Source of the DNA: an uncultured Eubacterium sp.
Lineage (GTDB): Bacteria > Bacillota > Clostridia > Oscillospirales > Acutalibacteraceae
Length of the DNA: 33,123 bases
Direction: 5' to 3'
Assembly: GCA_905233805.1 (NCBI GenBank)
Contig: CAJOER010000057.1
Location: 1 to 33,123 of the forward strand
Shown: positions 5,963 to 22,577 of the stretch, piece by piece
How positions within the stretch are numbered: the stretch's first letter is position 1
Layout of the letters: the number at the start of each line of letters is the position of its first letter
Made by a program: the position numbers and the translations under genes
The notes under the pieces: model-generated
Databases searched by the model: none
Told to the model about the DNA's origin: nothing
Seen by the model: only the letters and a program-made list of their open reading frames with translations

Positions 5963-7414
5963 ATGAACAGACGCAAAAGAGTACAGCTTTCGCTTGAATT
6001 TTTAATAGATTTATTCTGTATTATTCTCGCAAGCGCTGTTTCTATTGTTCTTTTCAGATACTTATTAAACAGAATACCTAAGTTCCCTTATGAAGAGTGG
6101 GCGAGATACTGGGCTACCCTTATTCTCGCCTACCTTGTAGTGTTCTTCGGATACTACGTCAACATCGACGTTCAGAGAAGAAGCAGGGGAAAAGAATTTT
6201 ATTCCGTTTTTCAGAACGCTGCTCTGACATTCGGCTTTTTCTCCGTTCTTATCGTTCTTTTAAAGAACCCGATTGTTGAATCAAGATATATGCTTATTTC
6301 AAGTTTCGTTTTCTTCGTTGCTTTTACGTCCGTAGGACGGTACTTTTTAAAGCGTTATCTTACGGGTTATTTCAAGCACGGAAAAACGGCGTCCCTCGTC
6401 GGCGTTATCACCACTACGGACAGAGCCGAGGAACTTATATCCAAGTTAAAACTCGACTGGACCTTAAATGTAAAAGGCGTTGTTCTTCTTGACGATTACT
6501 GCAAAAACGATATTTTCAGTTACAGGGGAAAAACAGTTCAGACGGTCAACGGAATTCCCGCGCCTGCCGTAAAGTCTTTTATGGACTGGATTCTCGCCTC
6601 CCCCCTTGACGAGGTTTTCGTTAACCTCCCCTACGGCGACGACTCCGAGCTTCAGGTGCTTATTGAAGAGCTTGAGGATATGGGAATTACGGTACATATC
6701 AACCTCCCTGCGCTTGACGATATTCTCAGCGAAAGCAAGTTCAACAACATTAACTGTAAGATGCAGTACGGCTATCCCATGGCTTCCTTTACGGCAAGCG
6801 AAAAGAAATTCGGACTTCTTGCAGTGAAAAGAGCCTTCGATATCGTTTTAGGCCTTGTCGGCTGTATAATCTCTCTTCCCATTATTGCAATAACCGCTAT
6901 TCCGCTTAAAAAGGAATCTCCCGGTCCGCTTATCTTCAAGCAGGCGAGAGTAGGTAAAAACGGAAGAATATTCAACATATACAAACTGCGCTCAATGTAC
7001 GTTGACGCTGAAGAGAGAAAGCAGGAACTGCTTGAACAAAACCAGATGGACGGCTTAATGTTCAAGATGGAAGATGACCCGAGAATCACCAAGGTCGGTC
7101 GCTTTATAAGAAAAACAAGCATTGACGAGCTTCCTCAGTTTTTTAACGTTGTCAAAGGCGATATGAGCCTTGTAGGTACAAGACCGCCCACCGTTGACGA
7201 GTTTGAACAGTATGAGAGCCGTCATAAGAGAAGACTTTCAATGCGTCCCGGTATTACGGGTATGTGGCAGGTCAGCGGACGAAGCGAGATTACGGACTTT
7301 GAGGACGTAGTTGAACTTGACTGCCGGTACATAGACGAGTGGTCGCTCAGTCTTGACGCAAGAATTATATTCAAAACCGTCGTAGTCGTTTTGACCCGAA
7401 AAGGAGCGGAATAG
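5963..7414 (+). CDS. Polyprenyl-phosphate sugar-phosphate transferase (priming glycosyltransferase, WbaP/CpsE type)
   Basis: N-terminal TMs plus C-terminal bacterial sugar transferase domain (FKQARVGKNGRIFNIYKLRSM..., TSIDELPQFFNVVKGDMSLVGTRPP, RPGITGMWQVSGRS). Confidence 0.95.
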   Translation: MNRRKRVQLSLEFLIDLFCIILASAVSIVLFRYLLNRIPKFPYEEWARYWATLILAYLVVFFGYYVNIDVQRRSRGKEFYSVFQNAALTFGFFSVLIVLLKNPIVESRYMLISSFVFFVAFTSVGRYFLKRYLTGYFKHGKTASLVGVITTTDRAEELISKLKLDWTLNVKGVVLLDDYCKNDIFSYRGKTVQTVNGIPAPAVKSFMDWILASPLDEVFVNLPYGDDSELQVLIEELEDMGITVHINLPALDDILSESKFNNINCKMQYGYPMASFTASEKKFGLLAVKRAFDIVLGLVGCIISLPIIAITAIPLKKESPGPLIFKQARVGKNGRIFNIYKLRSMYVDAEERKQELLEQNQMDGLMFKMEDDPRITKVGRFIRKTSIDELPQFFNVVKGDMSLVGTRPPTVDEFEQYESRHKRRLSMRPGITGMWQVSGRSEITDFEDVVELDCRYIDEWSLSLDARIIFKTVVVVLTRKGAE

Positions 7415-7421
7415 TTATCAT

Positions 7422-8540
7422 ATGAAAATCGCAATGATAGGCCACAAGCGTATTCCCTCCCGTGAAGGCGGAATTGAAATCGTCGTCGGCGAACTGTCAA
7501 AAAGAATGGCTGCCCTCGGCAACGAGGTTACGGCGTATAACCGTAAGAGCAGGCACATAGCGGGCGAAGGCTTTGAAACCGCCGAAGGACTCGGCAGTTA
7601 CGAGGGCGTAAAGCTTAAATGGGTATACACTCCCGATTCGGCCAGGCTTAACGCAATAGTATACAGCTTTTTATCAACGGCTGACGCCGTTTTAAAATCA
7701 TACGATATTATTCATTTTCACGCAGAGGGACCGTCGGCAATGGTTCCTCTTGCAAAATTTTTCAAAAAAAGATGCATTGTCACAATCCACGGCCTTGACT
7801 GGCAGCGTTCAAAATGGGGCGGCTTTGCAACAAAGTTTTTAAAGTACGGCGAAAAATGCGCCGCAAAATATGCCGACGAAATAATTGTTCTTTCAAAAAA
7901 CGTTCAGGAGTATTTTAAAAATACATATAACCGCGATACCGTATATATCCCGAACGGAATCGAAGAACCTCAAATAAAAAACGCTGAGATAATAAAAGAA
8001 AAGTATGCCCTTGAAAAGGACGGATATATTCTTTATCTCGGTAGGCTGGTCCCCGAAAAAGGGATTCATTTTCTTATTAACGCGTATAAGAACACTGATA
8101 CTGCCCTGCCGCTTGTAATCGCGGGAGGCGCAAGCCATACTGTCGAATATGAAAACGAGCTGCGCGAACTTGCAAAAGACGATAAAAGAATCGTTTTTAC
8201 GGGATTCGTTGAGGGCTACGAACTCGGCGAGCTTTATTCAAACGCTCTGCTTTACGTTCTTCCGAGCGAGCTTGAGGGTATGCCTATCAGCCTGCTTGAA
8301 GCTATGAGCTACGGCAACGCCTGCCTTACTTCCGACATTTCGGAATGTACCGAGGTATGCGAGGACACGGCGGTGTACTTTAAATCCGGCGACGAAAACG
8401 ACCTGAAAGAAAAGCTTGAAGGCTTAATCAGTTCTCCCGAAAAAATCAAAGAACTTAAAAGCAAATCAAAAGACTTTATTTTAAATAAATACAACTGGGA
8501 CGAGGTCTGCGAAAAAACGCTCAGGCTATATAAAAAATAA
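7422..8540 (+). CDS. GT4-family glycosyltransferase
   Basis: KRIPSREGGIEIVVGELSKRMAALG; LGRLVPEKGIHFLINA; PSELEGMPISLLEAMSYGNACL. Confidence 0.93.
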   Translation: MKIAMIGHKRIPSREGGIEIVVGELSKRMAALGNEVTAYNRKSRHIAGEGFETAEGLGSYEGVKLKWVYTPDSARLNAIVYSFLSTADAVLKSYDIIHFHAEGPSAMVPLAKFFKKRCIVTIHGLDWQRSKWGGFATKFLKYGEKCAAKYADEIIVLSKNVQEYFKNTYNRDTVYIPNGIEEPQIKNAEIIKEKYALEKDGYILYLGRLVPEKGIHFLINAYKNTDTALPLVIAGGASHTVEYENELRELAKDDKRIVFTGFVEGYELGELYSNALLYVLPSELEGMPISLLEAMSYGNACLTSDISECTEVCEDTAVYFKSGDENDLKEKLEGLISSPEKIKELKSKSKDFILNKYNWDEVCEKTLRLYKK

Positions 8541-8554
8541 AGCGAGGTGAAAAA

Positions 8555-9745
8555 ATGAAAATCCTTATGGTAAATAAGTTTCTCCATCCCAACGGTGGCT
8601 CGGAAACTTATATATTCAAACTCGGCGACTATTTAAAGTCAATCGGTCACGAGGTTGAATACTTCGGTATGGAGCACGAGAACAGAACCGTATCAAATTC
8701 TCTCGGCCTCTATACGGATAATATGGATTTTCATACCTCAAGCAAGCTGACTCAGCTCACCTACCCGCTTAAAACTATATATTCCTCAGACGCAAAAAGA
8801 AAAATGCTCTCTCTGCTGAAAAGTTTTCAGCCCGACGTTGTTCACCTGAATAACTTTAACTATCAGCTGACACCGAGCGTTATTTACGCGGTCAAGGACT
8901 ATGAAAAAGCGTATTCGAAAAAGGTAAAGATTATTTATACCGCGCACGACTATCAGCTTATCTGCCCTAACCATATGCTCAGGGATATGCAGGGCGGACT
9001 CTGCGAGGACTGCCTCGGCGGTAGCTTTTTGCCCTGCGTCAAAAAATCATGCATTCACTCGTCGAAAGCGAAGAGCCTTACGGGCTTTGCGGAGGCGACT
9101 CTTTATAAAAAGCTCAAAGCGTATAAGCATATTGACTGTATTATATGCCCGAGCGGTTTTATGAAAACCAAGCTTGACCTCAGCCCCGTGCTCAGCGGAA
9201 AAACGGTTACGCTGCACAACTTCATTGACGACGTTGAGAGAAAAGAAAGCGAAAAGAAAGACTACGTTCTCTATTTCGGACGTTATGCCGAGGAAAAAGG
9301 AATTGACACTCTTCTTGACGTCAACGGAGTTAACCTCGTGTTTGCAGGCTCGGGCGACTCTGAAGAAAAAATAAACAGCAAGCATGGCGTTAAAAACGTC
9401 GGCTTTAAAACAGGTAAAGAACTTGAAGAATTAATCCGCGGCGCGGTATGCTCCGTTTATCCGAGCGTGTGGTATGAAAACTGCCCGTTCTCGGTTATGG
9501 AAAGCATAATGTACGGCACCCCCGTTGTCGGCGCCGATATCGGCGGAATCCCCGAACTCATTGACGAGGGAAAGACAGGTTTTCTTTTCAAGGCGGGCGA
9601 CCCCGCCTCGCTTGAAGAAGCGATTAAAAAGATAACCGAAAAACCTGCGCTTGCAGACGAAATGCAGAAAAACTGTCTTAATAAGAAGTTTGACACGGTT
9701 GACAGGTACACCGAAAAATATCTTGAGATAATTGAGGCGCTTTAA
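8555..9745 (+). CDS. GT4-family glycosyltransferase
   Basis: NKFLHPNGGSETYIFKLGDYLKSIGHEVEYFG; YFGRYAEEKGIDTLL; YENCPFSVMESIMYGTPVVGADIGGIPEL. Confidence 0.94.
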   Translation: MKILMVNKFLHPNGGSETYIFKLGDYLKSIGHEVEYFGMEHENRTVSNSLGLYTDNMDFHTSSKLTQLTYPLKTIYSSDAKRKMLSLLKSFQPDVVHLNNFNYQLTPSVIYAVKDYEKAYSKKVKIIYTAHDYQLICPNHMLRDMQGGLCEDCLGGSFLPCVKKSCIHSSKAKSLTGFAEATLYKKLKAYKHIDCIICPSGFMKTKLDLSPVLSGKTVTLHNFIDDVERKESEKKDYVLYFGRYAEEKGIDTLLDVNGVNLVFAGSGDSEEKINSKHGVKNVGFKTGKELEELIRGAVCSVYPSVWYENCPFSVMESIMYGTPVVGADIGGIPELIDEGKTGFLFKAGDPASLEEAIKKITEKPALADEMQKNCLNKKFDTVDRYTEKYLEIIEAL

Positions 9746-10812
9746 TGGCAGACGGAAAAAAGAAGTATTACGACGAACTGAATATTTTTCGCAGTCTTAT
9801 AATCATATGGGTAGTTATAGGGCACTCGTTTGATACCGGAAGCGATTTTCTCGGCCTTCTCCATACCTACGCCTATACCTTCCATATGAAGGCGTTCATT
9901 TTGCTCAGCGGTCTGCTTTTTGCAAAAAAGATAAAAGCGCTCGTTTCATATAAAGACGGCGCAAAACTTATCGGCGACAGATTTTTAAGACTTATGGTCC
10001 CGTACTTTTTCTATACCGCGGTATCAATCGTCTTAAAGCTTTTCCTTGACGACTACGCAAACAACAAGCTTTCGCTTAAGGTTGTTATCGACTCGCTCGT
10101 CGGCGTTTCAAATCCCAACGGCGGAATATGGTTTTTATACGCGCTGTTCGTGCTTAACGTATTTGCTGTGCTTATATATAAACTGCCCGCCCTTTTAGGA
10201 CTTATCCTGACGTTTGCGCTTCATATCGTTCATATAAAAACGGGCGTCTTTTCTTCAATCCCGCTCGTTACGCATATTACATTTTACGGCGTATTCTTCT
10301 ACGGCGGAATGGTAATAGCGGATTACTATGACAGCATCTCTCTTTCAATGAACGAGTTTTTCAAAAAAAGCCCCGTTATATCGGGCGCCGCGTCTTTGCT
10401 GTACCTCCCCGTAGCGTTTATTATTTCGCTCATTTCGGTTAAGGCGCTGAAAAGCAGCAGCGTTTTAACCCTGCTTATCCCCGTACTGAATATAACCGTT
10501 TACTACTGTCTTTCGGTGTTTATCAATTCTATTGCAAAACTGAAAAAGCCGTTTGTGACGGTAGGCGACTACGGAATGGATATATATCTTATCGGCTACT
10601 ACGTCCAGATTACGCTCAGAGTACTGCTTAAATCAATGCTCGGCCTGCCGTACGTTGTTTATTCGCTTGCTATGTGTATCTGCGGACTGCTTGTGCCGAT
10701 ACCGATTTCAAAATATTTTGTAAGAAAATTCAGAATAACAAGAATACTCGCTCTCGGCGATTATAAAAAACGAACCCCAAAGGAAGAAGAACAAGATGTC
10801 AAAAAAGCTTAA
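9745..10812 (+). CDS. Acyltransferase family 3 (membrane O-acyltransferase)
   Basis: DELNIFRSLIIIWVVIGHSFDTG...FHMKAFILLSGLLFAKK; multiple TM segments; start codon overlaps upstream stop (TAATG). Confidence 0.9.
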   Translation: MADGKKKYYDELNIFRSLIIIWVVIGHSFDTGSDFLGLLHTYAYTFHMKAFILLSGLLFAKKIKALVSYKDGAKLIGDRFLRLMVPYFFYTAVSIVLKLFLDDYANNKLSLKVVIDSLVGVSNPNGGIWFLYALFVLNVFAVLIYKLPALLGLILTFALHIVHIKTGVFSSIPLVTHITFYGVFFYGGMVIADYYDSISLSMNEFFKKSPVISGAASLLYLPVAFIISLISVKALKSSSVLTLLIPVLNITVYYCLSVFINSIAKLKKPFVTVGDYGMDIYLIGYYVQITLRVLLKSMLGLPYVVYSLAMCICGLLVPIPISKYFVRKFRITRILALGDYKKRTPKEEEQDVKKA

Positions 10813-11934
10813 CGGAACGGTAATTGTAACCTACCGATGCAACGCGCGCTGCAATATGTGCAACCGATATAAAGCCCCCTCGAAACCCGAGGAGGAAATC
10901 AGCATTGATACAATTAAAAAGCTCCCCGAAATGTATTTTACCAACATTACGGGAGGCGAGCCGTTTATAAGAACAGATTTAAAAGACATTGTACGCGAAC
11001 TCGATAAAAAAAGCGACCGTATTGTTATTTCAACAAACGGTTTCTTTACGGACAGAATAATTGACCTTTGCAAAGAATTCCCGAATGTGGGAATAAGAAT
11101 ATCCATTGAAGGCCTTGAAGAAACGAACAACAAAATAAGAGGCCTTGACGACGGATATAACAAGGGCTATACAACGCTCAAAAAACTTGTTGAAATGGGG
11201 CACGGCGACGTCGGCTTCGGTATGACCGTTCAGGACGCCAACGCAGACGATTTAGTCAATTCGCGACCGCGTCGCTTCATAATTCCTTCTATTTCGTTGA
11301 GGCTAAAAATATTATTCACGACCGCGAGGCGGTTGCAAAGAATTTTGAAAAGCTGATTAACGAGCTTTTAAAATCGAACTCACCGAAAAAGTGGTTCAGA
11401 GCGTATTTCAACCACGGACTTATTAATTATATCTACGGCCAGAAAAGGCTCCTTCCCTGCGATATGGCGTTCGATACCTTCTTTATCGACCCCTACGGCG
11501 ACGTAATGCCCTGTAACGGAACTAAGGAAAAAGAGGTTATGGGTAACCTCAACGAACAGAGCTGGGACGAGCTTTGGAACAGCGGGCAGGCGGAAAAGGT
11601 AAGAGAAAAAGTGCGCCACTGCGACAGGCAGTGCTGGATGATAGGTTCGGTATCCCCCGCTATGCACAAATACATAACCGTTCCCGCCGCATGGGTAATT
11701 AAGCATAAGTTTTTACGCTTTTTCAAAGAAAACAAATACTCTATGTACGAAAATAAAATCTGCTGCGATTACAGAGACGGCAAGGTTACGAAGGAAGAAC
11801 TTGACGCTCTTTCAACCTGCGATATGAGCGCGGTGAGCAGCGACGGACTCAGCGACGAGTCAAAGGCGGCGCTTGAGGGTACTACCGGCGAAGCAATAGT
11901 CGACGCAGATATAAAAGCACAGTTGAGGGATTAA
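10796..11934 (+). pseudogene. Radical SAM/SPASM protein, frame-disrupted near 11255
   Basis: First frame has CNARCNMC (CxxxCxxC) and ITGGEPFIR; second frame gives FATASLHNSFYFVEAKNIIHDREAVAKNFEKLINELL...DTFFIDPYGDVMPCNGTKEKEVMGNL (SPASM-like). Confidence 0.87.
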
Positions 11935-14235
11935 ATGAAAGTTTTATTTGTAAACCCGATAATTTATACCTCCGAAACAGCGGACATAAAAAGGGCCGAG
12001 TCAATTAAAGACACGATGAGCTACGATTTGTGCCTCGCGTTCAAAAACGAAGGGCACGATATAACTCTCGTCGCGGGCGAACCGTTCAGACCTGAAAACG
12101 ACGTGGACTATCCGTTTAATATCGTGTGGGCAAAATGCGCTCTCCCTTCGGTTTGCAGGCCCAACGCGCTTCCGTTTTGTCCCGAGGTAATAAAACTTGT
12201 AAAAGACGAAAGCTTTGACCTTGTAATTTCAAGTGAAGTGTTTTCGCTTAATTCCCTTATGCTCGCGCTCAAATCAAGGGACAATCTTATAGTCTGGCAC
12301 GAGCTTGCAAAGCACAATAATATTTTCCGCTCAATCCCTTCAAAAATCTGGTATAACCTCATAGCAAAAACCGCGTTTAAGGGCGTGCCCGTAATCGCAA
12401 GAAGCGAGGAGGCAAAACGCTTTATTTCGCAGTTTTGCAACAACGTATCAAACAGCATAATCGACCACGGCGTAAATCTTGAAAAGTTTAAGGCGTGCAG
12501 CGAAAAGGAAGATTATTTTATAGTTTCCTCCCAGCTCATTGAGAGAAAGCAGATAGATAAGATAATTGATAAGTTTTCTGCGTTTTCAAAAACGCATCCC
12601 TCGTATAAGCTTTACATTTTCGGTGAGGGCGAATGCGAAGACGCGCTTAAAAAGCAGAGCGAGGCGCTCGGCCTTACAGATAAAGTGAAATTCTTCGGCA
12701 AGGTTTCTCACGAAGAGCTTAAAGAGTACCTTTCAAAATCAAAGGCTCTGCTTGTATATACAAGAAAAGACAACAATATGATTTCAGTCGTTGAAGCTAT
12801 TGCGTGCGCTACTCCGATTATTACGACGGGCGTGCCTTACAACGCGTCGTATATCAGAAAATACCGCCTCGGTATAGTAAACGACGAGTGGAATGAAAAC
12901 GACCTTGAAGAAATCATTTCAAACGGCGAGTATATCAACAACTGCCTTTCTTACCGCGAAGGTATATCAAACGAAAGCAAGGCAAACGCTTTTATTAAAG
13001 AAAAAAGTTCCAAAAACGTTCTGCTTTCTTCTTACAGCGTTAACCCCTACCACGGAAGCGAGGACGGCATAGGCTGGAACTGGACGCTTCAGGCGGCAAA
13101 ACAATTTAATGAAAACGATAAAATCTACCTCATTACCAAAAAGGTAAACGAGGCGGATACGATAAAAGGCATTGAAGAACTCGGCCTTGATAACGTTAAG
13201 CTCAGAATAGTCGACACGCCCTACTGGCTTAACTGGTACAGGGAGCACAACTCAATGTTCCACCACCTCTACTACATTATGTGGCAGGCGGTTGCGTATG
13301 GCTGGGCAAAAAGAAGCAAAATTGATTTTGATATTATTCACCACATAACAATGGTTGATTTCAGAATACCAGGCTTTATGTGGAAATTCAAAAAGCCCTA
13401 TACCCTTTTCGGCCCTGTCGGCGGAGGACAGTCAACCCCCGCGGCACTGAAAGACTACGAAAAGTCAAAGACGGTTGAAAAGTTCAGGGAAAGCATCAAT
13501 AAGGCTTGCTCTGTAGTACCGTACTATAAAAAAGCAATCAGCCGTTTTGACCGTGTTTTCGCTATTAATAAAGAAACCGAGGCGTATATGTCAAAAGCGC
13601 TCGGCAAAGGCTGTGAAAGGCTGACGGAACTCGCGCTTGCAAAAGAATTCCGCGCGCTTGATATTCCACCGAAAGCCGAAAACGAAACGGTAAAAATCCT
13701 CTACCTCGGCAGACTTATCGAAAAGAAAGGGCTTATGCTTTTGCTTGACGTAATTAAAAATATGCCCAAGGACGCGGACTTTATTCTTGAAATTTACGGC
13801 GGAGGCCCGCTTGAAGAAAGAATAAAAGCGTTTATTGACGAAAACGCGCTTAGCGAAAAAGTAAAGCTTTGCGGCGAGGTTGACCATACTCTCGTTTCCT
13901 CGGTATATTCCGGCGCGGACATTTTCGTTATGCCCTCGCTCAGGGAAACGAGCGGAAACGTGCTCGTTGAGGCTATGGCGCACAAACTGCCCGTCGCGGC
14001 GCTTGATATGAGCGTTTGCAGCGATTTCAAAGAATACAGCTGCGGCGAGTTTGTAAACGTAAATCAGAGCAAAGAAGAGATAATCAGAGAGTTCGCGGAT
14101 AAGCTGACTCTTCTCGTAAATGATTATGAACTAAGAAAAACGCTCGGCGAAAACGGCTATAAATTCGTAAACGGCGAGCTTTCATGGGAAAAGAAATTTG
14201 AGAAGGTCTATGAAGGACTTATAAATCAGGAGTAA
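11935..14235 (+). CDS. Tandem (double) GT4 glycosyltransferase, 766 aa
   Basis: Two GT-B/GT4 modules in one ORF, each with its own C-terminal half (FIVSSQLIERKQIDKIIDKF... and ILYLGRLIEKKGLMLLLDV...FVMPSLRETSGNVLVEAMAHKLPV); junction near residue 357. Confidence 0.88.
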   Translation: MKVLFVNPIIYTSETADIKRAESIKDTMSYDLCLAFKNEGHDITLVAGEPFRPENDVDYPFNIVWAKCALPSVCRPNALPFCPEVIKLVKDESFDLVISSEVFSLNSLMLALKSRDNLIVWHELAKHNNIFRSIPSKIWYNLIAKTAFKGVPVIARSEEAKRFISQFCNNVSNSIIDHGVNLEKFKACSEKEDYFIVSSQLIERKQIDKIIDKFSAFSKTHPSYKLYIFGEGECEDALKKQSEALGLTDKVKFFGKVSHEELKEYLSKSKALLVYTRKDNNMISVVEAIACATPIITTGVPYNASYIRKYRLGIVNDEWNENDLEEIISNGEYINNCLSYREGISNESKANAFIKEKSSKNVLLSSYSVNPYHGSEDGIGWNWTLQAAKQFNENDKIYLITKKVNEADTIKGIEELGLDNVKLRIVDTPYWLNWYREHNSMFHHLYYIMWQAVAYGWAKRSKIDFDIIHHITMVDFRIPGFMWKFKKPYTLFGPVGGGQSTPAALKDYEKSKTVEKFRESINKACSVVPYYKKAISRFDRVFAINKETEAYMSKALGKGCERLTELALAKEFRALDIPPKAENETVKILYLGRLIEKKGLMLLLDVIKNMPKDADFILEIYGGGPLEERIKAFIDENALSEKVKLCGEVDHTLVSSVYSGADIFVMPSLRETSGNVLVEAMAHKLPVAALDMSVCSDFKEYSCGEFVNVNQSKEEIIREFADKLTLLVNDYELRKTLGENGYKFVNGELSWEKKFEKVYEGLINQE

Positions 14236-14236
14236 T

Positions 14237-15316
14237 ATGCAGGAAAAGATAAGATACGCTTACATCGACAATATGAAATTTGCTGCGTGCATTCTTGTTG
14301 CCCTCGGCCATTTCTTTATGTCAATGACGGCGAACAAGGTTATGCCTTACAGCTTCGCGTATAACTATCTTATCAAAACGCTCTACACCTTCCACGTGCC
14401 GATATTCTTCGTTTGCAGCGGTTTTTTATATCAGAATTCGTGCAGGGTTACGTCGTTTAGTGCGTATAAAAAAGAACTGCCGAAAAAACTGCTTGACCTC
14501 GGCGTTCCGTACTTCGTGTTTTCCGCAATTACCCTGCTTTTGAAAATACTGTTTGAAAACGACGTTACTACAAAGGCAACCGCGTTCTGGGATACTTTAT
14601 TTATTCACCCGACTGCGCCGTATTGGTTTTTATATTCCCTGTTTTTCATGTTCCTCTTCATACCCTGTATAAAATCAAAAAAAGCTGCATATATACTGTT
14701 TTTTGTATCGCTTGTTTTTAAAATCGGAGTGTTATTAATCAGCGACAAACTGACTGTTCCTATTACTAACGGAGTAATTCTTTTTATTGCTTTGCGTCTT
14801 GAAAAATTCTGCCATAGCGCAATATGGTTTTGTTTCGGAATGCTCCTGAGGTTCATTGATAAAGAAAAAATAAAAAAATACGGAAAATTTCTTGCGCCCG
14901 TTTTTCTGGCAGTAGGCATAGCTTTAAGTTTTTATTTCTTGTCGGGCAAGAGTGATATGAGCCAAGGGGAGGATTTTATCACCGGAGCGGCATTTATACT
15001 CTTCACTGTTACAATATCGATAGTCTTCGCGCCCGAGGCGCTTAACAGGATTTCTTTAAAGTTTTCGGAATTCTTTATGCCCGTATTCGTAATGCACACA
15101 ATCTGTGCCGCCGCAATACGCATATCACTGTTCAAAATTGGAATTGAAAGCTTGCCCATACATATTCTCGGCGGACTTATCGGAAGTTTTGCAGTACCTA
15201 TAATTATTTACATAATCTGCAAAAAACTTACTCCGTTGATGTTCTTCTTCTATCCGACCAAAACGATAAAACTTCTGAAAGGGAAAAAGCATGAGCAAGG
15301 CGAAATCTCTCTTTGA
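14237..15316 (+). CDS. Acyltransferase family 3 (membrane O-acyltransferase)
   Basis: RYAYIDNMKFAACILVALGHFF...YTFHVPIFFVCSGFLYQ; about 10 TM segments. Confidence 0.9.
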   Translation: MQEKIRYAYIDNMKFAACILVALGHFFMSMTANKVMPYSFAYNYLIKTLYTFHVPIFFVCSGFLYQNSCRVTSFSAYKKELPKKLLDLGVPYFVFSAITLLLKILFENDVTTKATAFWDTLFIHPTAPYWFLYSLFFMFLFIPCIKSKKAAYILFFVSLVFKIGVLLISDKLTVPITNGVILFIALRLEKFCHSAIWFCFGMLLRFIDKEKIKKYGKFLAPVFLAVGIALSFYFLSGKSDMSQGEDFITGAAFILFTVTISIVFAPEALNRISLKFSEFFMPVFVMHTICAAAIRISLFKIGIESLPIHILGGLIGSFAVPIIIYIICKKLTPLMFFFYPTKTIKLLKGKKHEQGEISL

Positions 15317-16199
15317 AAAAAGTAAAAGCAACCACTCTCTGCTGTACGACTCGGTTTCGTACGGTATGTATAAGCTTGGCTACGGCGACATAAATCTCGC
15401 CGGCGCAAACTCACGCTATAAAACCTTTACGAAGCTTGAAAAGGAATTCAAAGGCGAGATAGGAAAAACGGATTTTAAAACCTACGAAAACGATATGAGC
15501 AATACCGTATGGATTTGCTGGCTTCAGGGAGTTGAAAACGCGCCCGAGCTCGTGAAAAACTGTATTACCTCAATTCAGTATTATATTAAAGACAGGGACT
15601 TCATTTTTATAAACAAAGATAACTTTTCAAATTACTGCGAAATCCCCGGATATATTGTCGACAAGTGGAAAAAGGGCGTTATCTCAAATACTCATTTTTC
15701 GGATATACTACGCCTCGCGCTTTTAATTCAGCACGGCGGGCTTTGGCTTGACTCAACGGTTTATATGTCGGGCGAGCTCCCCGATTATATAACCGACGGC
15801 GATTTCTTCGCATACAGGGACGGCTTTTTCAACTGTGATTTAATCAACATAGGCAACTGGCTGATTTATTCAAAGCCGAACAATATTCTTTTAAACGAAA
15901 CGCTCAGTCTTATTTACAGTTACTGGAAAAAGTACAACCACACAAAGCATTATTTCATTTTCCAGATGTTTTTCAGAATGGTTACTGACTGCTATGAAAA
16001 AGAGTGGAGCGACGTTCCCTATTTCAGCCAGATGGACCAACACATTTTCTCCTTCGAGCTGCTTGACAAATTCAGCGAAAAACGCTGGGCACAGCTTAAA
16101 GGACTCACTAATATTCACAAGCTGACCAACAAAATCTACGTATCAAACGCCGAGGACGGCAGCTACTATTCAATGCTTGATAAACTATATAAACTATAA
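15291..16199 (+). CDS. Capsular polysaccharide synthesis / GT32-like glycosyltransferase
   Basis: VWICWLQGVENAPELVKNCITSIQ...HFSDILRLALLIQHGGLWLDSTVYM (DxD-like LDST). Confidence 0.9.
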   Translation: MSKAKSLFEKSKSNHSLLYDSVSYGMYKLGYGDINLAGANSRYKTFTKLEKEFKGEIGKTDFKTYENDMSNTVWICWLQGVENAPELVKNCITSIQYYIKDRDFIFINKDNFSNYCEIPGYIVDKWKKGVISNTHFSDILRLALLIQHGGLWLDSTVYMSGELPDYITDGDFFAYRDGFFNCDLINIGNWLIYSKPNNILLNETLSLIYSYWKKYNHTKHYFIFQMFFRMVTDCYEKEWSDVPYFSQMDQHIFSFELLDKFSEKRWAQLKGLTNIHKLTNKIYVSNAEDGSYYSMLDKLYKL

Positions 16200-19068: not shown

Positions 19069-19732
19069 AATATGATTTTATGAGCTTTATATCGCGGGAT
19101 TTAAGTATGCGGATTAAATCCGCGTTATTTTTTATCGGCTCTTTCGTGATTATGCCGCCACGTCCGAGGTGTTCGGGCGTGTGGAAATCCGAGCCTGAAC
19201 TCATAAGCTTTCCCGTATCAATCGCCCACTGAAACGCCTTGAAATTAGTCAGCGCGTCGCACTTTCCGTTAAACACTTCAATACCGTCGATATAATCGGG
19301 GTTGCAGCGCAGAATATACGGCCGAAACGGGTGCGCCTGAAAAACTAGGTAGCCCTGCGCGTGCATAAGCTCATACGCCTGCTTTTCCCACAGCGCCATT
19401 AAGTTCCCCTGCTGCCTGAGCCAGTCAGGCTCAACGCCGTAGATAAGATAATCCGCGCCCGTTGCATAGTGCCTGAGCTCCATACCGAAAAGCACGGTAA
19501 AATCCTCGGTTTCGTACTTTTTCATTTCTTCATAAGAAGAAATATAAAAGTCAATGTATTTCTGCGGTTTTATGAGGTTTTTATTACCGAAGGTAAGGGG
19601 GCTGTAATGCTCGGTTACAACTATGCCCGAGTAGCCCTTTTCCTTATACATTTTTACAATTTCCTTCGGATGAACGCGTCCGCACTGGCTTACCAAATTT
19701 GTATGGCAGTGCAGTTCATATTTATATTCCAT
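19067..19732 (-). CDS. PHP-domain phosphoesterase/metal hydrolase
   Basis: ELHCHTNLVSQCGRVHPKEIVKMYKEKGYSGIVVTEHY; FGMELRH; AHPFRP; SGSDFHTPEHLG. Confidence 0.92.
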   Translation of the reverse strand: MEYKYELHCHTNLVSQCGRVHPKEIVKMYKEKGYSGIVVTEHYSPLTFGNKNLIKPQKYIDFYISSYEEMKKYETEDFTVLFGMELRHYATGADYLIYGVEPDWLRQQGNLMALWEKQAYELMHAQGYLVFQAHPFRPYILRCNPDYIDGIEVFNGKCDALTNFKAFQWAIDTGKLMSSGSDFHTPEHLGRGGIITKEPIKNNADLIRILKSRDIKLIKSY

Positions 19733-20747
19733 TAAAGTAAAGTCCTTTTATAAATTTCCTTTATATCGTCATTATCAAGCACGGTCGGGTGAGTCGAGAG
19801 TTTCGATACATTGACCTTCGATACAAATTCGTCAATCTTATCCTCGCTTACCTTCGGGAATTCGAGAGCGAACTCGCTGAGAAGCGCGTCAAAAATCTTA
19901 ACTCCGTCTTCGGCGTTTTCGCCGCCCATAAGCTTCCCGAGTTCGTCAAGATTTGAGAAGAAATAATCATGTCCCCTGTCGCCGTTTAGCTTTTCGTTAT
20001 GTTCAAGCGCGTATTTCCAGAGACGGCTCTGAAGCATGGCAACGCTGTGGCCGTGCGCCGTGTTGCAGTTCATGGTTATGCTGTAACAAAGCGCGTGCGC
20101 CGCGGTAGTTCCCGTAACGTTAATCATACCGAGGTTGCCCTCGGGCGTATTATTCATATATGCGTCCTTGTTTTCAAAGAAAAGCTTTATAGACTTTGCA
20201 GCGTATTCCTTGCTCTCCTCGTTTGCCGTAGTTGACCAGAAGCTCTCAATCGAGTGGCAGAGTGCGTCAAGACAGGTTGCCTTTCTCTGATACGGCGGCA
20301 CGGTACTGAGCAGGCGTTCGTCAAAGAGAATATAATCGGGAATAAAGTCGTAGTTATGAACGCTGAACTTGTCAACGTCGTTAAGATAGAATACCGAGGT
20401 CTTGGTCGCCTCGCTTCCCGTGCCCGAGGTAGTCGGGATAAAAAGCGCCTTGTATTCATTGTTTTCCATCGGCTCGCTGAGCGCCTTACTGACGTCGTTA
20501 GTCGCCATAAGACGAATCATTTTTCCCCCTAACGCTTCAGTACATTTATTTAAAGTTAGATTTAGAGCATATCGTCAAAGCGCGGGTTCGGGCGGATTGT
20601 ATCCCAGACGACTGTATCAAACTTTTTAAGATATTCAAAAATATCCGTTTTCTGAAAGCTCTTGCCGCAGCAGACGAAGGGCTTTTTTACGTTATTTTCC
20701 TCGAATATCCTGTCAATTTCCTTATAGCTTTTTAAAAATTCAGACAT
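19732..20747 (-). pseudogene. Iron-containing alcohol dehydrogenase, disrupted around 20521-20562
   Basis: N-terminal piece (20562-20747) ends FDTVVWDTIRPNPRFDDML*; C-terminal piece (19732-20520) has IPTTSGTGSEATKTSVF, DALCHSIESFWS, GHSVAM; the GGGSxxDxAK cofactor loop is missing. Confidence 0.83.
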
Positions 20748-20794: not shown

Positions 20795-21565
20795 TTATAA
20801 AACGAAATATGTAATATAAATTTTATGCTTTACGGTAAAGCTTTCGGGGTAAGAGGAAAGCATTTTAAGGTGCGACCTGCTCCATTTTTCAAACTGCTCT
20901 TTGCTCATTGAGGCGAGCGTTCCGCGGCAGGCGCACATTCTTCCGTGCCAGCCCTCCCGCGTGAACGCAATATCGCAGTAAAATTCCTCGGTTTTTCTGC
21001 CTGCAAAAAGGTCGTCGTATATATCCTCTTCTATGCCCATTTTGCCGGTCCAGTCGGGATTATACTCTTTAACAAGGCTGACGCTTTTTTCGGCGATTTC
21101 ATCGTCAAGGCACCAGTCCATATATATCTTAATGAGCTTTCCGCCCGGCTTTAAAAGCCGTTTTACTTCCGCCTTCATTTTATCGCGCTCAAAATATGAA
21201 AAGCACTGCGCCGCGGTTATGGTATCAAAGCTCCCGTCTGGGAGGTTCGTGCTCTCCGCGGGGGAAACGAGGTAATCAACTTCAAAGCCGTTTTCCTTCG
21301 CAGTTTCTCTTGCAAAACGAATCTGCTCCTCGGTAATATCAACACCTGTAATACGGGCGTTTTTATTATACAGATTCTGAATAAGTACCCCCGTACCCGT
21401 ACCGAGGTCAAGCCACGCCGTACCGTCCGCCGCAACGCCGAGGGCGCGCAGCTTTTCATACAGTTTATCGGGGTAAATATCGCGGTATTTTGCGTACTGC
21501 TCGGACGTAAAGCCCCAGTCATACGCCTTCCCGCAGTCAATGTTTTCAAGTTTCACTTTAATCAC
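20795..21565 (-). CDS. Class I SAM-dependent methyltransferase
   Basis: AWLDLGTGTGVLIQNLYNKNARITGVDITEEQI; SFDTITAAQCFSYF; RLLKPGGKLIKIYMDW. Confidence 0.9.
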   Translation of the reverse strand: MIKVKLENIDCGKAYDWGFTSEQYAKYRDIYPDKLYEKLRALGVAADGTAWLDLGTGTGVLIQNLYNKNARITGVDITEEQIRFARETAKENGFEVDYLVSPAESTNLPDGSFDTITAAQCFSYFERDKMKAEVKRLLKPGGKLIKIYMDWCLDDEIAEKSVSLVKEYNPDWTGKMGIEEDIYDDLFAGRKTEEFYCDIAFTREGWHGRMCACRGTLASMSKEQFEKWSRSHLKMLSSYPESFTVKHKIYITYFVL

Positions 21566-21579
21566 ACCTTTTTCTAATA

Positions 21580-22356
21580 TTATTCTTTTTTGGTGAAAAT
21601 ATCAAGCATATGTATTGAAAATCCTGTCAAATCGTCGCGCTCACAAATACTGTGCATGAATTTCATATACTCTTCAAATTCTCTTTTGTTAAGGCGGTTG
21701 AGTTTGTTATTCACAACGTAAGAAAGCATATCAACGCCGACAAAATGTAGCCGCGTTACGTTATAGCTTTTCATCAGCTCGTCAATATCGGACTTTCTGT
21801 ATAATTCAAAAATTTCATTCGGACTTGATATTGCGTGGTAATCCTCGCCTATCATTCCCTTTTTTCTTAAACTGAGAATACGCCTTTCATAAAACATTTT
21901 ATACATACAAGTATCATTGTTACAGTAAGAAGCGTATATAACGCCTCCCGTTTTCGCAACCCTGACGGCTTCGCTGAGCGCGGAGTGCTTTTCCTCGTCA
22001 GTAAACAAATGATACATCGGTCCGAGCAACAGCACTATATCAAAGCTTTCATCATCGAGGAAGAATAAATCAACGGCATTCCCCTCAATGATTTTTATTT
22101 TATGCTCTGCTTTTACTTTCTTTTTCATAATATCAATATTATGCTTTACAAGCTCAACCGCCGTAACGTCGTAGCCCTTTTCAGCGAGCGCTACCGAATA
22201 TCTTCCCGTTCCGGCACCGATTTCAAGAATTTTTGCACCTTCAAACAGATATTTTTCAATGTATTCCATGGTAAGCAGATATTCGGGACGTCGATTTTTC
22301 TTCAATAATCTACCGTCCTCGTCATAATGATTATAATATTCAATAACAGAATTCAT
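21580..22356 (-). CDS. Class I SAM-dependent methyltransferase preceded by attenuator-like leader
   Basis: MNSVIEYYNHYDEDGRLLKKNRRPEYLLTMEYIEKYLFEGAKILEIGAGTGRYSVALAEKGYDVTAVELVKHNI; start at 22356 after RBS GAAAGGAGAATCAGT. Confidence 0.93.
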   Translation of the reverse strand: MNSVIEYYNHYDEDGRLLKKNRRPEYLLTMEYIEKYLFEGAKILEIGAGTGRYSVALAEKGYDVTAVELVKHNIDIMKKKVKAEHKIKIIEGNAVDLFFLDDESFDIVLLLGPMYHLFTDEEKHSALSEAVRVAKTGGVIYASYCNNDTCMYKMFYERRILSLRKKGMIGEDYHAISSPNEIFELYRKSDIDELMKSYNVTRLHFVGVDMLSYVVNNKLNRLNKREFEEYMKFMHSICERDDLTGFSIHMLDIFTKKE

Positions 22357-22372
22357 ACTGATTCTCCTTTCA

Positions 22373-22411
22373 AAAAAATAACTGCTGACAAACCTTGTGT
22401 TCATCAGCAGT
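22373..22411 (-). terminator. Intrinsic terminator between the leader ORF and the methyltransferase RBS (attenuator)
   Basis: Minus strand AACTGCTGA-tgaacacaaggtttg-TCAGCAGTT followed by ATTTTTTT, immediately before GAAAGGAG. Confidence 0.85.
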
Positions 22412-22437
22412 TCGGTAATTTATATAATCTTACAAAA

Positions 22438-22527
22438 CTATCTTAAATGAACACAACGCCGATAAGCCCATACCTTCTGGCAGGGCTGCTGATACTGTGC
22501 ATTCAGTTTTGTAAAATGCTTTTTCAT
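22438..22527 (-). CDS. 29-aa leader peptide (uORF)
   Basis: MKKHFTKLNAQYQQPCQKVWAYRRCVHLR*; RBS-like GAGG 8 nt upstream of ATG; sits between a strong promoter and the attenuator. Confidence 0.72.
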   Translation of the reverse strand: MKKHFTKLNAQYQQPCQKVWAYRRCVHLR

Positions 22528-22548
22528 AGTGATTACCTCGTTTTGATA

Positions 22549-22577
22549 ATGGTAGCATAAATGATTAACGTTGTCAA
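22549..22577 (-). promoter_or_regulatory. Sigma-A-type promoter of the leader ORF/methyltransferase unit
   Basis: Minus strand TTGACA (22577-22572), 17-nt spacer ending TGC (extended -10), TACCAT (22554-22549). Confidence 0.75.

Follow-up and report, generated by a model that had tools for sequence, protein, structure and literature searches.

Genes and regulatory features of the locus

The window, by which we mean the whole 33,123-nucleotide stretch of DNA that was analysed, encodes two neighbouring class I SAM-dependent methyltransferases on its minus strand. The first, MTase1 (258 aa, 21580..22356, minus strand; Pfam Methyltransf_11/25), begins with an ATG at 22356 that follows an AAAGGAG sequence. 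MTase2 (256 aa, 20795..21565, minus strand; assigned by Pfam) has a GTG start at 21565, 14 nt past the MTase1 stop, and is presumably co-transcribed with MTase1. The two genes recur together in both orders (window 20795-22356; loci L005 and L010), and this gene arrangement suggests that their functions are linked.

The region upstream of MTase1 contains, on the same strand, a promoter, a short open reading frame and an intrinsic terminator. The promoter (22549..22577, minus strand) consists of a -35 TTGACA (22577-22572), a 17-nt spacer, and an extended -10 in which TGC precedes TACCAT (22554-22549). It is apparent on reading the sequence and, with 10 of 12 matching positions and the TG, is the top promoter match in the 2.6-kb region scanned. 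A leader ORF of 29 codons plus stop (22438..22527, minus strand; sequence MKKHFTKLNAQYQQPCQKVWAYRRCVHLR) starts with an ATG at 22527, ends with a stop at 22438, and has a GAGG upstream at 22539-22536. The terminator (22372..22412, minus strand) has a 14-bp stem and a 5-nt loop, the hairpin spanning 22412-22380, followed by a run of 7 T, and is the top terminator match of the same scan. The 205-nt window RNA folds with z = -4.6, that is, 4.6 standard deviations below shuffles. The original prediction had described the promoter, the 29-codon leader, the terminator and complementary segments within them, and all are found at the positions that it gave.

The structure model of MTase1 (pLDDT 92.9) has a Rossmann fold. 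Among solved structures, the closest in fold are TM1389 and the tRNA methyltransferase CmoM (TM 0.79), followed closely by many small-molecule enzymes. MTase1 scores 32.7 bits against the NCBIfam model Erm23S_rRNA_broad (cut-off 212) and 34.3 bits against ksgA (cut-off 171). No radical SAM match is listed for it in Pfam or NCBIfam, and its Pfam matches are to class I Rossmann methyltransferase families only. These curated-model scores rule out identification as Erm, KsgA, Cfr or a curated resistance methyltransferase, bearing out the earlier remark that the protein carries no obvious Erm or Cfr signature.

Elsewhere in the window, an iron-containing alcohol dehydrogenase ORF of 262 aa (19732-20520, minus strand) matches the N-terminal domain profile only from about position 99, and is probably truncated or a pseudogene, judging from this match. 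A capsule or exopolysaccharide cluster at 5963-16199 (plus strand) encodes a sugar transferase, several GT4 glycosyltransferases, acyltransferases and Caps_synth.

Homologues of MTase1 and their upstream regions

In named genome contigs, 28 relatives of MTase1 were found, many of them from metagenome-assembled Clostridia of ruminant and other guts. The gene is patchily distributed, occurring in 30 of 200 genomes of the family. In relatives with at least 68% identity, a diverged leader and terminator lie immediately upstream, or ahead of the first gene of the operon (L005, L010, L013); L007 and L016 were left out of this judgement owing to a contig end or differing upstream sequence. None of the inspectable close homologues lacks the leader or the complementarity. 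The L016 copy (L016:1-240) is about 69% identical to the window protein, and other sequence, possibly an insertion, replaces the leader beside the contig end. At L019 / L076 the methyltransferase frame is interrupted (a two-piece match) behind an intact switch, and this may be a decaying copy.

Among distant homologues (about 40-54% identity), eight have a clearly different leader and terminator with similar complementarity (L017, L018, L020, L021, L023, L024, L026 and L033; p = 0.065 in L018 and L023), and in four no leader or terminator was seen (L022, L025, L027, L028). Complementarity is visible in L034, L053 and L055, but does not rise above shuffles. In other lineages, switches that are unrelated in sequence or strongly diverged precede members of the same methyltransferase family (L018, L020, L021, L023, L024, L026 and L033, as well as L036 and L038-L041 with leaders of the MNTYL type). 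This pattern suggests that the control either evolved repeatedly or diverged fast.

One element upstream of many different genes

With a covariance model built on the leader region (R1), the same element was found before other genes, and a second model (R2) was used for scans of the genus and order. R2 matches 42 of 80 genomes of the genus, with about 60 elements, and 66 elements were aligned. Across the order, it matches 6 of 394 genomes, most of them of this genus. All 66 aligned elements have a leader of 28-38 codons, and 63 of the 66 have a promoter of the TTGACA-N17-TGnTAnnnT type at a similar distance, versus 2.9 expected. The promoter travels with the cassette.

The original prediction described the switch before the methyltransferase, but its distribution shows that it is not dedicated to that gene: the same element heads genes for GNAT acetyltransferases, two methyltransferase families and Walker-A proteins. 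Over 64 element entries, in which a few contigs are counted twice via two collections, the first gene behind the element encodes a GNAT acetyltransferase (30), MTase1 (18), MTase2 (6), a phosphoesterase (2), an S51-peptidase-like protein (2), a Walker-A protein (1), an alkaline-phosphatase-superfamily-like protein (1) or an unassigned product (4). Relatives of MTase2 directly follow the same switch in L005, L063, L073 and L086. Genes further behind the cassette encode Walker-A proteins, HIT, Nudix, MATE and HAD proteins, and a weakly S66-peptidase-like protein. These assignments derive from similarity clusters, reading of the Walker A motif, and NCBIfam matches that are all below curated cut-offs; no tested downstream gene meets a curated resistance-family cut-off.

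Near-identical leaders stand before different gene sets (L077, L079, L080 and L081; L078 and L084), indicating that the genes behind the cassette have been exchanged. Spread of the enzymes on plasmids was considered and discarded, as plasmids carry only distant relatives (<60% identity). Some cassette operons encode a peptidase S51-like protein, or a GNAT with an S66-like peptidase (L116, L117, L119), with scores far below cut-off. These combinations recall microcin C detoxification by MccF and MccE, a resemblance that we take to be a lead only.

Predicted competing helices in the leader RNA

Four parts of the transcript are central to the predicted switch, all on the minus strand. Segment 1 (22495..22517) comprises leader codons 4-11 and can pair with segment 2, as judged from duplex energies over the 66 elements. 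The P1 hairpin (22465..22487), AGCCC...GGGCT, lies within the leader and is supported by covariation. Segment 2 (22435..22456), the 5' strand of the antiterminator, covers the last leader codons, the stop codon and 3 nt further. Segment 3 (22395..22413), the 3' strand of the antiterminator, overlaps the 5' arm and loop of the terminator. Segments 2 and 3 were delimited by duplex and covariation analyses.

The original prediction rested on two pairings, which fared differently. The first, 10 nt long, is exact: TTGTGTTCAT (22456-22447) is the complement of ATGAACACAA (22404-22395). As described it was incomplete, being part of a 19-bp antiterminator helix (22456-22435 with 22413-22395) that extends beyond the leader stop and takes up nearly the whole 5' arm of the terminator. 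In the window this duplex has an energy of -18.1 kcal/mol (p about 0.01 against dinucleotide shuffles). The second pairing, 8 nt long, is also exact in the window (ATCAGCAG, 22493-22486, with CTGCTGAT, 22410-22403), and marginal at p = 0.04, but is not part of the conserved design. It reaches p ≤ 0.05 in 6 of 66 elements, which is about chance level, and its medians equal those of shuffles. Moreover, it crosses the 10-nt pairing, so that the two could occur together only as a pseudoknot, and we rejected it as a component of the switch. A different competitor, the helix between segments 1 and 2 (22517-22495 with 22456-22426), has -17.2 kcal/mol and p = 0.14 in the window alone, and p ≤ 0.05 in 40 of the 66 elements. 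Backed in most relatives, it is a candidate anti-antiterminator that could block the antiterminator.

Covariation was counted in alignment A4 (70 rows, 68 distinct sequences). The 66 elements of the duplex and masking analyses are A4 minus three overlapping or reverse-strand matches and one truncated row, all of which remain in the pair counts. In A4, 97.1% of the terminator cells are paired, 12 of the 14 pairs show two-sided changes, and the covariation is 0.459 (0.205 shuffled); for P1, 91.3% of cells are paired over 68 sequences, with covariation of 0.468 (0.275 shuffled). Both sets of counts lean upward, as these two helices belonged to the structure used for fitting A4. The antiterminator core lay outside that structure, and 81.2% of its cells are paired in A4, with 31-49% in slid controls. 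Its covariation of 0.146 versus 0.105 shuffled, a value that none of 500 shuffles reached, is significant but modest. In 59 of 66 elements the leader end and terminator arm, taken as free strands, form a duplex better than 95% of mononucleotide shuffles; against dinucleotide shuffles, the same holds for 52 of 66. Compensatory changes across homologous loci are found in the terminator, the P1 hairpin and the antiterminator.

Modelled effect of ribosome position

The influence of a ribosome on the leader was modelled by masking a 30-nt footprint and folding the RNA up to the terminator loop, which represents the moment of decision; the footprint is treated as fixed, and the truncated RNA as folding at equilibrium. 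With the ribosome at codon 8, the median probability that segment 2 captures the terminator arm before the 3' arm exists is 0.78 over the 66 elements. The family median falls to 0.07 with the ribosome at the last codon and is 0.33 without a ribosome. Codon 8 favours the antiterminator over the last codon in all 66 elements, largely because segment 2 sits in the last codons, a placement that is itself conserved. Stalls anywhere between codon 1 and about codon 19 leave the antiterminator open in the window. These results agree with the earlier proposal that a ribosome finishing the leader would mask the antiterminator strand, and that one stalled early would free it.

Two further results qualify this picture. 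In the window, the antiterminator prevails (0.97) even in naked RNA that still lacks the 3' arm, unlike the family median, and an untranslated leader may therefore be ON here. In full-length RNA, a stall with codons 7-11 in the P site moves the window equilibrium towards the antiterminator (0.41-0.44), and the terminator wins in most masking states, from which it follows that the switch must be kinetic.

What the leader may sense

The predicted dependence on ribosome position raises the question of what slows the ribosome. In attenuators of the trp/his type, a stall at a scarce codon, here possibly Trp codon 20, reports an uncharged tRNA. The mechanics would be the same: in the window the antiterminator still forms (0.97) when the ribosome stalls at P-site codon 19, and in many leaders a W belonging to a WAY/WAF motif lies close to the switch point. 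However, codons 2-19 contain no amino acid that every leader shares, and W is present there in only 27%. An MGY..CVHLW subgroup reads the same nucleotides in another frame and loses that W. Further, the downstream genes encode GNAT, methyltransferase, Walker-A, phosphoesterase and peptidase-like proteins rather than biosynthetic enzymes or aminoacyl-tRNA synthetases. On leader codon content and downstream gene content we rejected the trp/his/ilv-type starvation model, which we regard as quite improbable. Somewhat less improbable, though still unlikely, is drug-specific arrest by the nascent peptide, as in ErmCL and MsrDL, where the leader peptide and one drug class together arrest the ribosome and the peptide sets the specificity. 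Such arrest would fit the location of segment 1 at codons 4-11, where stalls tilt the full-length equilibrium in the window, and the recurrence of K7-L/M8-N9 in the leaders. It fits poorly with the divergence of the leader N-termini, whose pN/pS is about 1.0 in the main group, and with the occurrence of very different peptides on one RNA layout. The sequence GTTCAT, for example, is read in frame 0 in 41 leaders and in other frames in 7. The frame changes, the pN/pS of about 1.0 and the lack of a universal amino acid indicate that the RNA layout is kept rather than the peptide, although a pN/pS of 0.39 in the VHLW group, a point in favour of arrest, suggests that the peptide may matter in that subgroup.

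It could also be that translation plays no part, the structures being a constitutive terminator, a processing site, or an RNA that binds a protein or ligand, with the ORF incidental. P1 and the terminator are indeed the most strongly covarying parts. Yet in all 66 elements a leader ORF ends near segment 2, segments 2 and 3 are complementary in 59 of 66, and there is no Rfam match, making this the least credible of the alternatives and a very improbable one. Rfam gave 0 matches at the gathering score, and only chance-level matches below it, on which ground a riboswitch, T-box or known leader RNA was rejected. By this analysis, the leader looks like a general sensor of translation slowdown, which fits better than either amino-acid starvation or a fixed arrest peptide.

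A proposed translation-stress attenuator

The window element is very probably a ribosome-mediated transcription attenuator, predicted to respond to a general translation-slowdown signal, with the same cassette placed over unrelated enzymes. In silico support covers its parts, their conservation, covariation and geometry, and the modular distribution. The attenuation mechanism originally proposed is upheld by the ribosome-position-dependent choice between terminator and antiterminator, the conserved leader ORF and the covarying helices; the switch is not dedicated to the methyltransferase.

Transcription would begin at the extended -10 promoter, and the 29-codon leader would be translated by a ribosome. 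Under fast translation, the ribosome would cover segment 2 as it reaches the last codons, the terminator would form, and transcription would end short of the two methyltransferase genes. A ribosome that slows or stalls somewhere within about codons 1-20 should leave segment 2 free, so that it could pair with nearly the whole 5' arm of the terminator, forming the 19-bp antiterminator while the 3' arm has yet to be transcribed. We infer that readthrough in the cell, as well as termination, follows this course, and with the antiterminator formed both methyltransferases would be transcribed. A stall over codons 4-11 would also open the competing helix of segments 1 and 2. Most likely, the leader responds to ribosome-targeting compounds of the rumen or gut that slow translation in general, not to shortage of one amino acid, and we infer that such compounds are the inducers. 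Placed before the genes of several small modifying enzymes that are unrelated to one another, the same cassette would constitute, within the genus, a translation-stress regulon.

A broader hypothesis, which we hold tentatively and at slightly less than even odds, is that duplication and transfer spread the cassette over many unrelated enzyme operons, producing a genus-wide regulon that needs no regulatory protein and senses translation inhibitors via the ribosome. Its GNAT, methyltransferase and Walker-A products would then be undescribed enzymes that inactivate translation-blocking compounds, or shield from them the ribosome or tRNA as presumed targets of protection. Near copies of the switch before many small enzyme genes of related bacteria from gut and rumen suggest a shared response to such compounds. 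The cassette would be a searchable tag, marking the gene behind it as a candidate for inducible protection of gut and rumen Clostridia from compounds that act on the ribosome, and would offer a testable function for GNAT and methyltransferase families missed by curated resistance models.

Comparison with known systems

Characterised antibiotic attenuators have mostly been described gene by gene. A homologous attenuator before unrelated enzymes would amount to a riboswitch-style regulon in which the sensor is the translating ribosome. We found no description of this cassette family in the open-access literature, a scope outside which most subscription papers and all preprints fall.

A close parallel in leader design is bmrB-bmrCD of B. 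subtilis, where a translated leader has a predicted terminator, antiterminator and anti-antiterminator, and several ribosome-targeting antibiotics induce with no amino-acid specificity (PMC4191407). The window element likewise combines a leader ORF with a predicted terminator and antiterminator, and shows no evident amino-acid specificity. However, in bmrB the terminator is located within the leader ORF and a single ABC transporter is controlled, whereas here the terminator follows the ORF and copies stand before many unrelated enzymes. B. subtilis yxjB (RlmA-II), a tylosin-induced rRNA methyltransferase controlled with NusG pausing and an SD-sequestering hairpin, similarly has a leader peptide and terminator before a methyltransferase in a Gram-positive (PMC6851288), but the window enzyme falls outside the curated rRNA methyltransferase families. 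In E. coli, the toiL uORF of topAI-yjhQ-yjhP is a proposed sensor, along its whole length, of stalling by several ribosome-targeting antibiotic classes (PMC12121999), and so resembles the leader proposed here as a general sensor of translation stalls. It acts at a single locus on topAI translation with Rho termination, not via an intrinsic terminator as here. The smtA 'Soda Lake RNA', found upstream of a class I methyltransferase, is a different motif of >350 nt from Thioalkalivibrio (PMC11109978).

Within the same genus, ABC-F genes that score above the NCBIfam ribosomal-protection cut-off are also preceded by a uORF and then stem-loops (L125, L127, L132, L133, L134, L136). These uORFs of 6-7 codons (MYNFSCK, MSSFSCK, MINTCK) are unrelated in sequence to the 28-38-codon leaders, which excludes kinship, and apparently represent a second attenuator type. 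That ABC-F genes have short-uORF leaders of their own indicates that uORFs ahead of resistance-type genes are no oddity in this group. The mechanism class is already known from bmrB (PMC4191407) and yxjB (PMC6851288); the novelty lies in the family itself and in the way that it is distributed, as a module, across operons of unrelated enzymes.
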